A stretch of DNA of 62,022 nt, taken from Corynebacterium yonathiae. Lineage in GTDB: Bacteria > Actinomycetota > Actinomycetes > Mycobacteriales > Mycobacteriaceae. A model generated the notes under the pieces. It ran no database searches. It was not told the origin of the DNA and saw only the letters and a list, made by a program, of their open reading frames with translations. The stretch lies in assembly GCF_022288805.1 (NCBI RefSeq), contig NZ_JAKOPM010000013.1, forward strand, positions 1-62,022. The letters run 5' to 3'. Positions 25,447 through 54,070 of the stretch are shown in pieces (within the stretch, counting starts at the first letter, position 1; the number at the start of each line of letters is the position of its first letter). Both the position numbers and the translations under genes were made by a program.

Positions 25447-25554
25447 ACTCGAATTTTCGCCTCCAGCCGGCGCCGCACCCTTGCTCCCCTCTTGGGGGCA
25501 AAGTGCTTGTGTGCAGGCTAAAATAATCCGTTTAGAAAATATACGTAGTGCTTT

Positions 25555-25559
25555 GGGAG
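25555..25559 (+). promoter_or_regulatory. Ribosome binding site that sets the acyltransferase start
   Basis: GGGAG five bases before the GTG at 25565. It places the start after the HAD gene; an upstream in-frame ATG lies inside that gene. Confidence 0.6.
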
Positions 25560-25564
25560 TTTTT

Positions 25565-28500
25565 GTGAAGCAGATTTTGCGCTCACTGCTGGGAAAGAAG
25601 AAACCTGGGCGTTCAGATGAACCACGCACACCGGTCTATCAGCCAGTAAAGCCCAAAGCTGGCTCTGCCAGTGCGCCCCAGGCCCCAAATAAAAAAGATT
25701 CCGCGCCCCAAGAATCGGACAACACCAAGTCCACCACGAGTGCACGATCCACCACACCGCAAGGAAAACCACAGGACCGCTCTGCGCAGGAGGGCCAGTC
25801 TAAGGACCAAGCTAAGAAGACACCTGCAGGAAAGCCCGCGAAGGCTACCGAGCCCAAGCCTGCTGCCGCCAAAGACGCCTCTCGTCCCGAGGCCGCGCAG
25901 CCACACTCCAGCGCGGCAAATTCCGCTAAACCGCAGCGGGCAAAGGCAGCCTCGCAGTCGCCCGCAAACAAAGCAGCGACAAACAAGCCAGCTTCCCAAA
26001 ATTCCGAATCTAAACCCGCCGCCACTAAGCAGAGCAAGCCAGCAGCCTCTCCTAAGTCAGCAGCGGTAGAGAAACAGCCGCAATCGAACGCGCAGGAGAA
26101 GAAGCCCCAACGCAAGGCGCACGAACCGGTTCAGCGACCGCGCCGCGGTGCCAGCTTTAGCTCCACGACCTCGCCGAGCTCCCCGAAGGCCGATTCTGCC
26201 CGCGATACCTCCCCGAAGCCGGCGGGAAAGCCCGGCAAAAAGCCGTCTCAGCAAGGCGCTGCAAAGCCATCGCAGCAGACTCGACCTGCAGCCCAACAAC
26301 CAAAGAAGGCACCCAAGTCATCCACCTCTCCCAACCCGAAGAAGCCTTCCCCGAAGCCGGCGTCGCCGCGCCCGTCTGCTGCACAAGCACAGGCACCTTC
26401 TAAGCCAGCTAAACAACAAAAGGCTAAGCCGAAGCAGACTAACCCTGCCACCGCTAAACCTGCCACAGCCAAGCCGGCCGCAGACAAGCAGCAGCAAACA
26501 CAGAAGCCACGCCCCCAAAAGCGCAGGCAGGAAGACACCGCAAAGGAGACGACTCAGCCACGCCCAGCATCGAAAGAAAAAAAACAGCCTTCTAAGAGCA
26601 AGGGCGAAACATGCACGCCTAGTACCGCAAACCAAAAGGCTGCCCCGCAGGCATCAGCACCGAAAACTGCTACACAAAAGAAGAACACTACTGCCCCCAC
26701 GCCGAAGGCAACCGCACCAAGGACTGGGGCTGCCCCTTCCCAGCAGCCCACTAGGTCGGCTCAGAATAAGACTGCCCACAATAGGGATAAGGTAGCCCAG
26801 CCGAAGAAGGACCAAAGCGGATCCTCACAGGGCAGTCTTGATAAGCAGCAGGAGCAAAGGCCACAGCCACAGTCGAAGGCGTCGACGCCTCAGGACAAGG
26901 CTAGGAAGACGACAAAGCGCCGCCCAGAGGTAAAACCATCTGATATCAGCCGCGGGCTGGCCCGTAAATCTCAGCAGGTAGGCACCCCTACCTCGGCTCA
27001 GCAAAATCCACCGCGCGCTGTACCAAAGCCTAAAGCGAAGCAGCAGTCTGGACAGCCCCGGCCGAAGAAGGCAGAGCCCCAAGCAGCCCCAAAGACGGCT
27101 TCGGCAAAAACCAGCACGCCCGCAGCGACGGGTGGTATAGCTGGAGCAGGGGCGGCCACCGCCGCCGCTGCCGCCGCGGCTAAAGAGAGGCAACGAGACA
27201 AGGCACAGCCAGCAAAGGCACCACAGCCAGCTCCGAATAAGCCAAAGGCACCAGTAGCGCCGGACCAAGCGCAACCAGCTGCCCAGAAACCAGCAACACA
27301 GAAAGCGACAGCTCCGCAGGGGGATGCTAAATCCAAGTATCCGCTGCAAAAGCAGGCCAATGACCCTGAAGCGCTGGCGACACCGCCGGAGAGCAAGGTA
27401 GTCAAGAAAAAGCGTCACGCCCGTCTGCGCCAGGTCAAGGGTCTTGACGGCCTGCGCGGCCTCGCAGTCATTGCCGTGGTGCTCTATCACTTCTTCCCTT
27501 CCCTTCTACCCGGAGGCTACTTAGGCGTTGACCTCTTCTTCGTTCTTTCCGGATTCCTCATTACCTCGTTGCTGGTACGAGAATTCCGCACCTCCGGCAC
27601 GATTAGCTTGAAAGATTTCTGGGTGCGGCGATTCCGGCGCATTCTCCCGGCCGCAGTATCCGTTCTGGTCATGTGCACCGCGCTGGTGGCATGGATCGGA
27701 GACGACCTAGCGATTGGCTTGCGCCAGCAGTTCTTGGGCACCCTGTTCTTTGTCAATAACTGGACCCAAATCGCGACCTCCCAGTCCTACTTCGCGGACA
27801 ATGAGATTCAGGTTTTCGCCCATTATTGGTCGCTGGCCGTAGAGGAGCAGTTCTATGTCATTTGGCCACTTCTTATCACCGGCGTTTTCCTGATCTCTCG
27901 CCGCAAGCCGCGCCGGCTTCCTATCCTCGTAGCGACGGTCTTGGCCATAGGCTCTGCCGTGGCCATGGCGCTTCTTTTCGTGCCGGGAGAGGACCCAACA
28001 CGCGTCTACTACGGCACTGATACCCACGCTTTCGGCCTGCTCACCGGTGCCGTGCTGTCTTTGCTGATGACATCTACTAAGTCTGACCCAAAGGCGGATT
28101 CTTGGGCCGCGGCCGGCAAGTCTGAATCCCGTATAGCAGGGGTCATCGGCGCCCTAGCTCTCCTCGGCTACGGTGCACAGCTATTCCTCATGCCGGATGA
28201 TGCGGAAATCACCTACCGGGGCGGGCTCCTCCTCACCAGCGTGCTCGGTGTCCTTATGGTCTGGGGCGTGGTCCGCGAATACGGCCCTATGACCTCGCTA
28301 TTTAGGACCAAGGTCATGCGCTGGTTTGGCCAGCGTTCCTTCTCGCTGTATCTCTGGCACTGGCCAGTCATCATGATTCTCAAGGCGCTTTTCGAGGGCA
28401 ACCAGAATTCCGATAAATCCTGGATTCTGGGCCTGGTAGCCGTGCCAATTTCGTTGCTTCTATCCGAGATTTCTTATCAGTTCATTGAAAATCCGTTCCG

Positions 28501-29326
28501 CCGCGGCGGATATAAGAAGACGTGGAAGACCTACTGGTCATCCCGCCCAGGATTTAGCGAATTGCGCGATGGCTTTGGCAAGACCATGTGGCCGGTAGTC
28601 CCATTCCTCGTCATTGCCTCTGTAGCGGGCGTAGTCTACGGCGTTATTAACTCCAGCGATAAAACTGAGTTGGAGCAGCAATTGGAACAGCTCCAGCAGC
28701 AGAACCAGAGCAGCAACAATGCCCCAGTTCAGCCGAATAATGCTGCACCACAGCCACCTGCCGAGGACGAGGATCAGACTTCTTCGAAGGACAAGAAGAC
28801 CCGCCCCATGCCACAGGGTAAGGACATTACCGCTGTGGGTGACTCTGTGATGCTGGCTTCTAGCGGCGCCCTCAAGCAGCGCTTCCCGCAGATTTATGTC
28901 GATGCAGACGTATCCCGCCACTACACCGCGGGAATTCAAGTTCTCCAGCAGCTGAAGGATTCCGGCCAGCTGCGCGATACCGTTTTCCTCGGGTTCGGCA
29001 CTAACGGACCTGCCTTCCCGGATCAGATCAAGGAAGCTCTAGATATCATCGGCAAAGACCGCACCGTTGTTATGGCGGTTCCCTATGGCGACCGTGAATG
29101 GATGTCCCAGTCCCAACAGGATGTCATTGATGCAGCCAAGGAATACGACAATGTCTACATCGCTGACTGGTGCGGACACGCTCAGAGCGACCCCGCAATC
29201 CTCTATTCCGATGGTGTTCACCCAATGCCGGAGCGCACCGGCGAGTATTCGGATGCCTTCTACGATGCCCTGAAGCAGTACTCGAAATACGACAAGACTG
29301 TGTCCTCGCAGTGCGCGCCGCAGTAG
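25565..29326 (+). CDS. Acyltransferase-3/SGNH membrane protein with a giant disordered N-terminal tail
   Basis: Predicted envelope O-acyltransferase of the OafB/OatA type, 1253 residues. Residues 1-15 form a short helix; about 15-615 are a low-complexity, strongly basic tail of Lys, Ala, Pro, Gln and Ser, including a poly-Ala run near 535; AT3 family topology puts this in the cytoplasm. From about 620 (RQVKGLDGLRGLAVIAVVLY) comes an acyltransferase-3 domain of ten or so membrane segments, with the catalytic-type His of AVVLYHFFPS and LGVDLFFVLSGFLIT. A last segment lies at 1008-1030, then a Gln-rich coiled stretch, then an SGNH hydrolase-like domain from about 1086 with nucleophile GDSVML and the DGVH acid-His pair near 1214. 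AT3-SGNH proteins usually span 600-700 residues; the tail doubles this. Likely substrates are peptidoglycan or wall polysaccharide (inference). Confidence 0.9.
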   Translation: MKQILRSLLGKKKPGRSDEPRTPVYQPVKPKAGSASAPQAPNKKDSAPQESDNTKSTTSARSTTPQGKPQDRSAQEGQSKDQAKKTPAGKPAKATEPKPAAAKDASRPEAAQPHSSAANSAKPQRAKAASQSPANKAATNKPASQNSESKPAATKQSKPAASPKSAAVEKQPQSNAQEKKPQRKAHEPVQRPRRGASFSSTTSPSSPKADSARDTSPKPAGKPGKKPSQQGAAKPSQQTRPAAQQPKKAPKSSTSPNPKKPSPKPASPRPSAAQAQAPSKPAKQQKAKPKQTNPATAKPATAKPAADKQQQTQKPRPQKRRQEDTAKETTQPRPASKEKKQPSKSKGETCTPSTANQKAAPQASAPKTATQKKNTTAPTPKATAPRTGAAPSQQPTRSAQNKTAHNRDKVAQPKKDQSGSSQGSLDKQQEQRPQPQSKASTPQDKARKTTKRRPEVKPSDISRGLARKSQQVGTPTSAQQNPPRAVPKPKAKQQSGQPRPKKAEPQAAPKTASAKTSTPAATGGIAGAGAATAAAAAAAKERQRDKAQPAKAPQPAPNKPKAPVAPDQAQPAAQKPATQKATAPQGDAKSKYPLQKQANDPEALATPPESKVVKKKRHARLRQVKGLDGLRGLAVIAVVLYHFFPSLLPGGYLGVDLFFVLSGFLITSLLVREFRTSGTISLKDFWVRRFRRILPAAVSVLVMCTALVAWIGDDLAIGLRQQFLGTLFFVNNWTQIATSQSYFADNEIQVFAHYWSLAVEEQFYVIWPLLITGVFLISRRKPRRLPILVATVLAIGSAVAMALLFVPGEDPTRVYYGTDTHAFGLLTGAVLSLLMTSTKSDPKADSWAAAGKSESRIAGVIGALALLGYGAQLFLMPDDAEITYRGGLLLTSVLGVLMVWGVVREYGPMTSLFRTKVMRWFGQRSFSLYLWHWPVIMILKALFEGNQNSDKSWILGLVAVPISLLLSEISYQFIENPFRRGGYKKTWKTYWSSRPGFSELRDGFGKTMWPVVPFLVIASVAGVVYGVINSSDKTELEQQLEQLQQQNQSSNNAPVQPNNAAPQPPAEDEDQTSSKDKKTRPMPQGKDITAVGDSVMLASSGALKQRFPQIYVDADVSRHYTAGIQVLQQLKDSGQLRDTVFLGFGTNGPAFPDQIKEALDIIGKDRTVVMAVPYGDREWMSQSQQDVIDAAKEYDNVYIADWCGHAQSDPAILYSDGVHPMPERTGEYSDAFYDALKQYSKYDKTVSSQCAPQ

Positions 29327-38477: not shown

Positions 38478-39704
<1,227 letters not shown>

Positions 39705-52049: not shown

Positions 52050-52760
52050 TCATACCAATCGACCAGCCTGGCGGAGGCGATCTACAGCAGTAAAGGCGTA
52101 GTCCTCTCTTACCAACGCCACGTAGTGGTGGTCCTGCCACGCGCCGTCGATATGCAGGTTGCGCCGCAAGTACCCCTCGTGCCGGAACCCATTGGCGGCC
52201 AAAACCCGACCGGAAGCAGGATTGTGCTCCAAATAGGTGGCTGTCACTCGGTGTAGGCCCACCCGCCCAAAGGCATGGTCCACTCCCAAGGCGGTTGCGG
52301 CCGTAGCTACTCCAGCACCGTGGACCGCGGAATATACCCAGTAGCCGATCCAGCAATCGCGAATGCTGCCATGCTGGATATTTCCCAAAGTCATCTGGCC
52401 TACAAACTGGCCCTCGACCTCAATGACCAGTGGGACCACCAGCCCCTCGCGCGCGGCGTTGCGCAGGTACATCAGGTGATTCCACCACGCCTGCTGGCTA
52501 TGCGCCGCCGCCCAAGGAGCGGTTTGGGTCGGCTCAACGGGGCGAAGGAACATTTCATCTTCGATGCGTTGCCGCCGCCATTCGTGGCCATCGGAACGCA
52601 GCAGCGGCCGCAAACGCAGCCGCGCCCCAGAAGGGAAGACAGAAGAAGAGGGCAGCCGCACAAAGGGAGTAGATTCCGGCCACCCCGGATGCACGTCATC
52701 GGTAGGGCCGCTAGCAGGATGGCGGAATCTATCCGCTGCGTTGCCAAAGGGATCAAGCAT
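52050..52760 (-). CDS. rimJ: GNAT acetyltransferase, RimJ type
   Basis: N-alpha-acetyltransferase, in E. coli acting on ribosomal protein S5. The 236 residues show an N-terminal extension of about 35 residues, then the GNAT core: GARLRLRPLLRSDGHEWRRQ, LVIEVEGQFVGQMTLGNIQH, SIRDCWIGYWVYSAVHGAGV with the acetyl-CoA loop, and RVTATYLEHNPASGRVLAAN with GFRHEGYLRRNLHIDG, all RimJ-type. The start shares one base with the glp stop (TAATG), so it is coupled to the division gene. Actual target in corynebacteria is unknown. Confidence 0.88.
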   Translation of the reverse strand: MLDPFGNAADRFRHPASGPTDDVHPGWPESTPFVRLPSSSVFPSGARLRLRPLLRSDGHEWRRQRIEDEMFLRPVEPTQTAPWAAAHSQQAWWNHLMYLRNAAREGLVVPLVIEVEGQFVGQMTLGNIQHGSIRDCWIGYWVYSAVHGAGVATAATALGVDHAFGRVGLHRVTATYLEHNPASGRVLAANGFRHEGYLRRNLHIDGAWQDHHYVALVREDYAFTAVDRLRQAGRLV

Positions 52761-54070
52761 TAGCTGCGCTGGGTCAAAAACAACACATCAACCACATCGC
52801 CAGGGCGAATTTCCGTTACCTCTTCTGGTACGCGAACCATGGCATTGGCCTCTGATAAGCCAGCCAAAAGGTGCGCCGGAGCGCCTGCAGCACCGCCGAG
52901 GCCTTCCACCAGATAGTCTGCGGTTTCCGCATCACGCATCAAGCGCGCGCGGATGAATCCGCGCCGGCCAGGACGCGAATCAATGTGGTTCAACGCGCGG
53001 GCACGCACCACGCGGCGGTGTGCATTGCGCTTGCCTAGTGCCAAACGGATGAGCGGGCGGATATATACCTCGAAGACCACGAGCGCGGACACCGGATTAG
53101 ACGGCAGCAAAAAGGTCGGGATGCGCTCCTCGCCTACCAAGCCAAACCCCTGGACAGAGCCGGGATGCATGGCCACACGGGAGGTATCGACATCACCAAG
53201 GTCATCCAGAATCTCACGGATGGCCTCGGCACCTGCGCCGCCAACCGCGCCTGAGATCACCAGCACCTCACTGCGGGCAATATGCTTTTCCAGCGCCTCG
53301 CGGATGCGGCGCGGCTCGCCCTCGGCAATGCCAACGCGATGTACCTCTGCCCCAGCCTCGCGGGCCGCGGCGGCAAGAGAATAAGAATTGACGTCAAAGA
53401 CTTGGCCCAGTGCTGGCTCTTGGTCCAAATCAACCAGTTCGCGGCCAAAGGAAATGATGGTGATGCGCGGGCGAGGATAAACCAGCACCTTAGAGCGGCC
53501 GACAGCGGCCAGAAGTCCGATCTGGGCGGGGCCCAACACGGTTCCAGAAGATACGGCGACATCACCAGGCTGGATATCATCGCCTACTCGGCGCACAAAG
53601 TCACCGGAGCGCACTGGGCGATGAGCGGTGACACGCTTGCGGCCGCGATCGGTCCACTCGAGGGGGAGGACGGCGTCGGCAAGCGTAGGCAAAGGCGCAC
53701 CCGTATACACGCGCACCGCCTGCTTAGGCTGCAGGCGCAGCGGCTGCTTGGAACCGGCCGGAACCTCACCCACCACAGGTAAGGAACGCTCTACCTCTGG
53801 CTGCTGGGGCTCTGACTCCTCTTCGCCCTGCGCAGGCTGTTCTTCCTGCCCTTTGGGACGGCGTACCCTCAAGCCACGCTCGCCTCCAATATCTACGGCG
53901 CGCACCGCATAGCCATCGATGGCTGCCTGCGGAAAGCCCGGCAGGGGCTGGTTAGCCTGCACTTCCTCTGCGCACATTAAGCCCAGCGCGTTGGAAATAC
54001 CGATGCGTACCGGCTCCGGTGTCGTCGCCGCATCCGTTACCAGCGCCAACTGGTCATCCACTGAACGCAT
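52760..54070 (-). CDS. glp: MoeA/gephyrin-like division protein Glp
   Basis: MoeA-fold protein of 436 residues, related to the gephyrin E domain. N-terminal ALGLMCAEEVQANQPLPGF, PQAAIDGYAVRA and RVYTGAPLPTLADAVLPLEW are MoeA blocks. In active MoeA the molybdate-site loop reads GGVSVGxxD; here it is GAVGGAGAE (about residues 270-280), and GLPGNPVS reads LLPSNPVS. This argues against the usual molybdopterin molybdotransferase role. The locus matches C. glutamicum glp, in which the protein binds FtsZ and the receptor GlpR. It lies between galU and rimJ, the latter translationally coupled. Residual Moco activity cannot be excluded. Confidence 0.85.
   Translation of the reverse strand: MRSVDDQLALVTDAATTPEPVRIGISNALGLMCAEEVQANQPLPGFPQAAIDGYAVRAVDIGGERGLRVRRPKGQEEQPAQGEEESEPQQPEVERSLPVVGEVPAGSKQPLRLQPKQAVRVYTGAPLPTLADAVLPLEWTDRGRKRVTAHRPVRSGDFVRRVGDDIQPGDVAVSSGTVLGPAQIGLLAAVGRSKVLVYPRPRITIISFGRELVDLDQEPALGQVFDVNSYSLAAAAREAGAEVHRVGIAEGEPRRIREALEKHIARSEVLVISGAVGGAGAEAIREILDDLGDVDTSRVAMHPGSVQGFGLVGEERIPTFLLPSNPVSALVVFEVYIRPLIRLALGKRNAHRRVVRARALNHIDSRPGRRGFIRARLMRDAETADYLVEGLGGAAGAPAHLLAGLSEANAMVRVPEEVTEIRPGDVVDVLFLTQRS

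Follow-up and report, generated by a model that had tools for sequence, protein, structure and literature searches.

The question raised by this locus is why an acyltransferase of the bacterial envelope should carry some 610 basic, low-complexity residues ahead of its acyltransferase-3 (AT3) domain. The gene lies in a 62,022-nucleotide stretch of Corynebacterium yonathiae (contig NZ_JAKOPM010000013.1; "the window" below means this whole stretch), where it occupies 25565..29326 on the + strand: a frame of 1253 residues, open throughout from a GTG at 25565 to a stop codon ending at 29326, that encodes an N-terminal arm (or tail), an AT3 domain and an SGNH domain. The named proteins closest to it come from C. 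kefirresidentii, C. marquesiae and C. tuberculostearicum, and the best named loci are those of Corynebacterium sp. p3-SID1241 (93%); we infer that this skin-type corynebacterium belongs to the C. tuberculostearicum group. The kind of enzyme is known; the arm, the rule governing its charge and its mobile motif are new here. With somewhat less than even confidence, we read the arm (residues 1-625, 25565..27439, + strand) as a flexible docking or tethering arm for one or more putative cytoplasmic partners. We favour this reading because the arm consists of a drifting, charged bulk with short conserved motifs, which is the usual anatomy of docking arms.

That the arm belongs to the protein follows from several observations. 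In six close relatives, in which the core is 93-95% identical to that of the window enzyme and the tail 56-64% identical over aligned residues, the ratio of nonsynonymous to synonymous substitution rates (dN/dS) is 0.20-0.25 for the tail versus 0.041-0.054 for the core; these ratios are rough, because dS in the tail (0.9-1.7) approaches saturation and low-complexity sequence cannot be aligned with certainty. The tail frame stays open in these relatives through 9-17 alignment gaps, and the substitution pattern indicates that the tail is translated and under purifying selection. Residues after the start codon are kept although the upstream open frame differs or amounts to just 7-10 codons (loci L093, L097 and L102), and 98 of the 120 homologues listed, out of 230 proteins found, begin with the N-terminal motif described below or with its MKQVFGLLR variant. 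(The homologue search was restricted to lengths between 0.55 and 1.75 times that of the query, so that tail-less proteins could not be returned; a few of the 120 are fragments or records starting elsewhere.) Thus, short of a peptide, the sequence comparisons establish translation from 25565 or very close to it. The sequence GGGAG lies at 25555-25559, five bases 5' of the GTG; use of a nearby in-frame TTG at 25553 (MGVFVKQ...) is possible, as homologue record P0043 starts at the equivalent place, and would have no material effect.

The initial annotation had described a tail of about 615 residues, strongly basic, rich in Lys, Ala, Pro, Gln and Ser, with a poly-Ala run and no predicted fold, and each of these features held up. 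Ahead of the AT3 start motif, the 625-residue tail comprises 18% Ala, 15% Lys, 15% Pro, 12% Gln and 10% Ser, with 4.3% bulky hydrophobic residues (ILVMFWY), and carries a net charge of +91, or a net charge per residue (NCPR) of 0.146; a run of GCC-type triplets at 27155..27177 (+ strand) encodes an Ala-rich stretch. The first 605 residues plot in the disordered half of a charge-hydropathy diagram, and an AlphaFold2 prediction of residues 447-1253 gave block values of 31-46 for the predicted local distance difference test (pLDDT) across its first 160 residues. The tail is positively charged in all 120 listed homologues (NCPR 0.061 to 0.178). Because the charge of 15 further long N-terminal frames in the genus spans acidic to basic values (NCPR -0.112 to +0.115), positive charge is a rule of the clade defined below and not of such arms generally. 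Comparison of homologues, which the initial annotation had proposed as a check on whether tail length and charge are conserved, therefore gave a divided answer: charge is kept within the clade but not genus-wide, and arm length, at 159-707 residues within the clade, is not kept. When searched against its own genome, the arm matched only itself among 130 candidates scored.

Conservation within the arm is concentrated in three islands, at residues 1-17, 454-484 and 594 onward, where conservation rises above its mean of 0.36 across 15 aligned clade members (a chosen set without L086, L092 and L035). The second, DISRGLARKSQQVGTPTSAQQ (residues 460-480, 26942..27004, + strand), has the form ISRxLARxSQxVGTPT, and a held-out profile built from nine other loci scores the window tail at 26.7 bits, compared with 7.3 bits for the best of 3080 shuffled tails. 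We call this motif mobile because its position in the tail differs, being 96 in L082 (a tail of 384 residues), 461 in the window (625 residues) and 95 in L099 (159 residues), so that it is kept while the surrounding arm grows, shrinks and shifts. Its pattern has only one match in its own genome, the AT3 gene, and the same holds for the profile at E <= 0.1. Across genomes the profile matches in 35 of 121 at E <= 0.1 and in 17 of 121 at E <= 4e-6; all 17 strong matches fall in frames of the AT3-SGNH gene, and the weaker matches (E 0.0016 and above) span part of the motif.

The first island, (M)KQILRSLLGKKKPGRS (residues 1-17, 25565..25615, + strand), has the form M-K-x-F-L-R-S-L-L; the strict pattern is absent in 22 of the 120 listed homologues, two of which have MKQIFGLLRAVR. 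An amphipathic membrane anchor was considered for this island and set aside, the hydrophobic moments of 13 distinct N-termini being not clearly above those of shuffles (p 0.035-0.374), and we claim it only as a hydrophobic-basic conserved motif. The third island is a juxtamembrane stretch (DPEALATPPESKVVKKKRHARLRQVK, residues 594-625, 27344..27439, + strand) whose pattern is found in 113 of the 120 listed homologues. Two weaker islands, at residues 30-41 and 156-178, resemble low-complexity alignment, the latter covering LPKASAVRKAQLTKARE, which is truly common to L094, L095, L097, L099 and L101. AlphaFold2 predicts short helices at low confidence in island 1 (residues 2-9 of L102) and island 2 (169-178 of L102, 459-466 of the window enzyme), with the remainder of the arm mostly coil. 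The conserved short motifs, together with the kinship to OatA discussed next, had been missed in the initial annotation.

The enzyme behind the arm is an OatA-like AT3-SGNH acyltransferase, which bears out the AT3 and C-terminal SGNH architecture originally assigned to it. Acyl_transf_3 (PF01757) is the sole Pfam domain (residues 625-966, 27437..28462, + strand; E 8.5e-37, 127.4 bits versus a cut-off of 31), and both AT3 motifs are present, R/K-X10-H as R631-X10-H642 and RXXR in the region 688-692; the corresponding core residues R27/H38, R84, R85, R87 and R88 are invariant in 16/16 rows. A hydrophobic segment at residues 1010-1028 (28592..28648, + strand), taken from hydropathy as transmembrane helix 11, is followed by the SGNH domain (residues 1090-1220 by match to OatA; 28832..29224, + strand). 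Its blocks GDS 1092, GTNG 1145 and DGVH 1216 contain S1094, N1147, D1216 and H1219 (core S490, N543, D612 and H615), which align to OatA and are likewise invariant in 16/16 rows. Among solved structures, OatA is the sole profile match of the SGNH domain and also its clear leader by fold; the fold lists from the PDB are filled with SGNH domains and are uninformative on the AT3 part.

OatA is an AT3-SGNH peptidoglycan O-acetyltransferase of S. aureus and S. pneumoniae, an enzyme type that acetylates O-6 of MurNAc. The OatA-like rows of Enterococcus and Lactococcus in our tree reach AT3 after no more than 22 and 5 residues, compared with about 610 in the window enzyme. The Salmonella O-antigen acetyltransferases OafA and OafB share with it the AT3-SGNH make-up and the R-X10-H and RXXR motifs (PMC7448272), but they are not among its PDB profile matches, and the accessible portions of the literature mention no long arm for them. 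TmaT, the trehalose corynomycolate acetyltransferase, is also an AT3 protein of corynebacterial envelopes; as described in PMC9558356 and PMC6174289 it is a stand-alone AT3 without SGNH, which separates it from the window enzyme. Independently of what the arm does, the acyl group might go to arabinogalactan or lipoglycan and not to peptidoglycan, as with the mycobacterial succinyltransferase SucT, an alternative that we consider rather unlikely. SucT (NF058601) is the only specific NCBIfam model matching a long stretch of the protein (the AT3 part, residues 609-981, E 7.7e-30), and the cell wall of the genus carries arabinogalactan. However, the score of 103.9 bits compares with a cut-off of 1275, the match ends before the SGNH domain, and that domain is nearest OatA in both sequence and fold.

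Since the SGNH domain of AT3-SGNH proteins is external, behind the eleventh helix, according to PMC7448272 and PMC9558356, the N-terminus would be cytoplasmic. By analogy the arm would lie on the cytoplasmic side, where the initial annotation had placed it, and the basic juxtamembrane stretch VKKKRHARLR fits this orientation.

The arm has a restricted phylogenetic distribution. Matches to the AT3-SGNH gene at E <= 1e-30 occur in 131 of 201 genus genomes, paralogues included. We placed the window in a tree of 88 rows (the window, 78 of the 80 loci fetched beside it, and nine named loci; L070 and L113 were left out) that was built by a quick method and has long branches. Extension lengths in this tree are upper bounds, counted from the earliest start codon that the open frame offers, and the start codons of distant rows are putative. 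The window falls in a clade of 29 rows with support 98, of which 27 carry long extensions (upper bounds of 163 to 737 residues) and the other two are L086, at a contig end, and L092, with undetermined bases; next outside the clade is L035, with at most 156 residues before AT3. Because the sister species C. pseudodiphtheriticum and C. propinquum (52% and 50% core identity to the window) have at most 12 and 59 residues there, the arm is a clade-specific addition. Scoring long versus short extensions at five thresholds from 80 to 250 requires 6-9 changes in 86 rows (L086 and L092 left out), so that long N-terminal frames probably arose several times; part of the distant extensions of L062, L065, L067 and L068 may be untranslated. 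Within the clade, genes for a HAD hydrolase, an enoyl-CoA hydratase and a DUF6882 protein lie upstream in 21 of 28 loci (L075-L102); of the remaining loci, L086 is truncated, L092 has a different arrangement, and the jeikeium-type L087-L091 are without these three genes. This synteny count covers clade loci, as the flanks fetched at distant loci are too short for a fair comparison.

Several loci show variations on the arm. The L087-L091 arm has the variant start MKQVFGLLRAVR, no island 2 and other neighbours, and is perhaps part of a transferred or relocated copy. In the tail of L084, a locus that is the same sequence region as C. striatum L119, a long block is present twice as seen by eye, and such duplication is a likely route of length change. 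The N-terminal frames of L039, L051, L052, L059, L065 and L068 are near-neutral or acidic with repeated VIxLxxPxGAPPAP-like wording, suggesting that in that lineage the enzyme has an arm of a second, distinct kind. The distant orthologues L044, L046, L047 and L069 have long, mildly basic arms of about 370-490 residues without island 2. In the genomes G031, G042, G110 and G133 the matches to AT3 and to SGNH fall in two separate, adjoining pieces, with a stop noted in three, and these appear to be broken or split genes.

With regard to function, acyl-CoA in the cytoplasm would donate an acyl group to the AT3 part, and the SGNH part on the outside would transfer it to wall glycan, most likely peptidoglycan. 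In one Corynebacterium clade this enzyme has gained a long, disordered, basic arm, predicted to be cytoplasmic, whose drifting bulk may provide reach and loose attraction to an anionic surface. Island 1 and the mobile ISRxLARxSQxVGTPT motif could make specific contacts with one or more putative cytoplasmic partners, and these contacts may control the site, timing or strength of wall acylation. Several observations weigh against docking. The strict island 2 pattern occurs in just 67 of the 120 listed homologues; the motif is degenerate in the accolens-like L081 and L116 (6.2 bits, under the best shuffle), and L087-L091 keep the arm and its charge without either island 2 or synteny. The N-terminal motif is not clearly amphipathic, and the conserved motifs could act on the enzyme itself and not on a partner. 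Furthermore, sister species are nearly armless; of the finding that the initial annotation had listed as damaging to its case, close homologues without the tail but with identical localisation and activity, these relatives with 50-52% core identity show the lack of a tail. It is possible, though we would not expect it, that the arm is a recruitment module linking O-acylation of the wall with the growth or division machinery of the cytoplasm, in which scaffold binding would place the OatA-type enzyme at the poles or septum, and that corynebacteria acquired arms of this kind, and altered their charge and length, on more than one occasion.

Because sister species do without the arm and the docking partner is putative, two other accounts of the arm are kept open. 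The first, which we judge rather unlikely, is near-neutral, tolerated growth of low-complexity sequence without a role, the islands being leftovers that serve only translation start and membrane insertion. The range of arm lengths within the clade, the repeated block in the C. striatum arm, the armless sister species and the long N-terminal frames of differing charge in other lineages are all consistent with such growth, but it does not readily account for an island 2 far from both ends that is kept while its surroundings turn over, or for positive charge in every listed homologue. Alternatively, and a little less plausibly still, the arm may function as an electrostatic antenna that gathers polyanions at the inner face, be it acyl-CoA for the AT3 pore to use as donor, or RNA, polyphosphate or DNA of the nucleoid, with no specific docking. 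The strong clade-wide charge and Lys/Pro/Ala composition suit this idea, as does the use of acyl-CoA as AT3 donor (PMC12423673), whereas island 2 is left unexplained and the same enzyme carries neutral or acidic N-terminal frames in other lineages. An internal translation start close to the AT3 domain, which the initial annotation had named as fatal to its reading, with the frame upstream of it open by accident, is very improbable: some homologue records do begin downstream (e.g., P0032 and P0107, perhaps at contig ends), but the tail dN/dS and the conserved residues after the start codon argue against it.

A literature search of titles and abstract starts, with most subscription papers outside its reach, returned no paper on a long disordered arm of an AT3 or OatA protein, and the word "disordered" does not occur in PMC9558356 or PMC12423673. 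Wall O-acetylation governs resistance to lysozyme and to a cell's own lytic enzymes (PMC6174289 and PMC1199599). If the arm does place the enzyme, spatial control of wall O-acylation becomes testable via two short motifs, and on the recruitment reading that control would be exerted by a disordered arm. The locus also offers a clear case of short linear motifs that are kept, and moved about, within a rapidly drifting disordered region of a bacterial protein. Should the arm have no role, the locus illustrates the extent of low-complexity growth that a membrane enzyme can bear.

A system that may work in a similar way is encoded in the same window. A probable GlpR (51906-50509, - strand) has a hydrophobic N-terminus, a long acidic stretch and two further hydrophobic segments, and the MoeA/Glp-type gene near it (52760-54070, - strand) may be Glp; GlpR relatives occur in 61 of 61 genus genomes searched. 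As described in PMC10522489, GlpR, the membrane-bound receptor for the divisome protein Glp in corynebacteria, is a partner-binding protein whose disordered cytoplasmic regions are long and charged. Its likeness to the window enzyme is one of working only, the two having no Pfam domain and no conserved motif in common. The window GlpR does contain ARRAKSQPFGTGS, which resembles island 2, and GlpR was considered as a sharer of that motif; the SQPFG wording is kept in just 4 of 30 GlpR loci (window included), with a near variant in L221 and none in the others, and the resemblance is taken as chance. The initial guess that GlpR is a partner of the arm thus gained no support. A promoter scan found 0 sites versus 1.0 expected, and terminator-like sites numbered 12 (5.5 expected), all but one of them on the minus strand. 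Another wall enzyme, an Rpf-like protein with DUF348, G5 and transglycosylase domains, is encoded in the window about 9 kb from the AT3-SGNH gene, at 38478-39659 (- strand).

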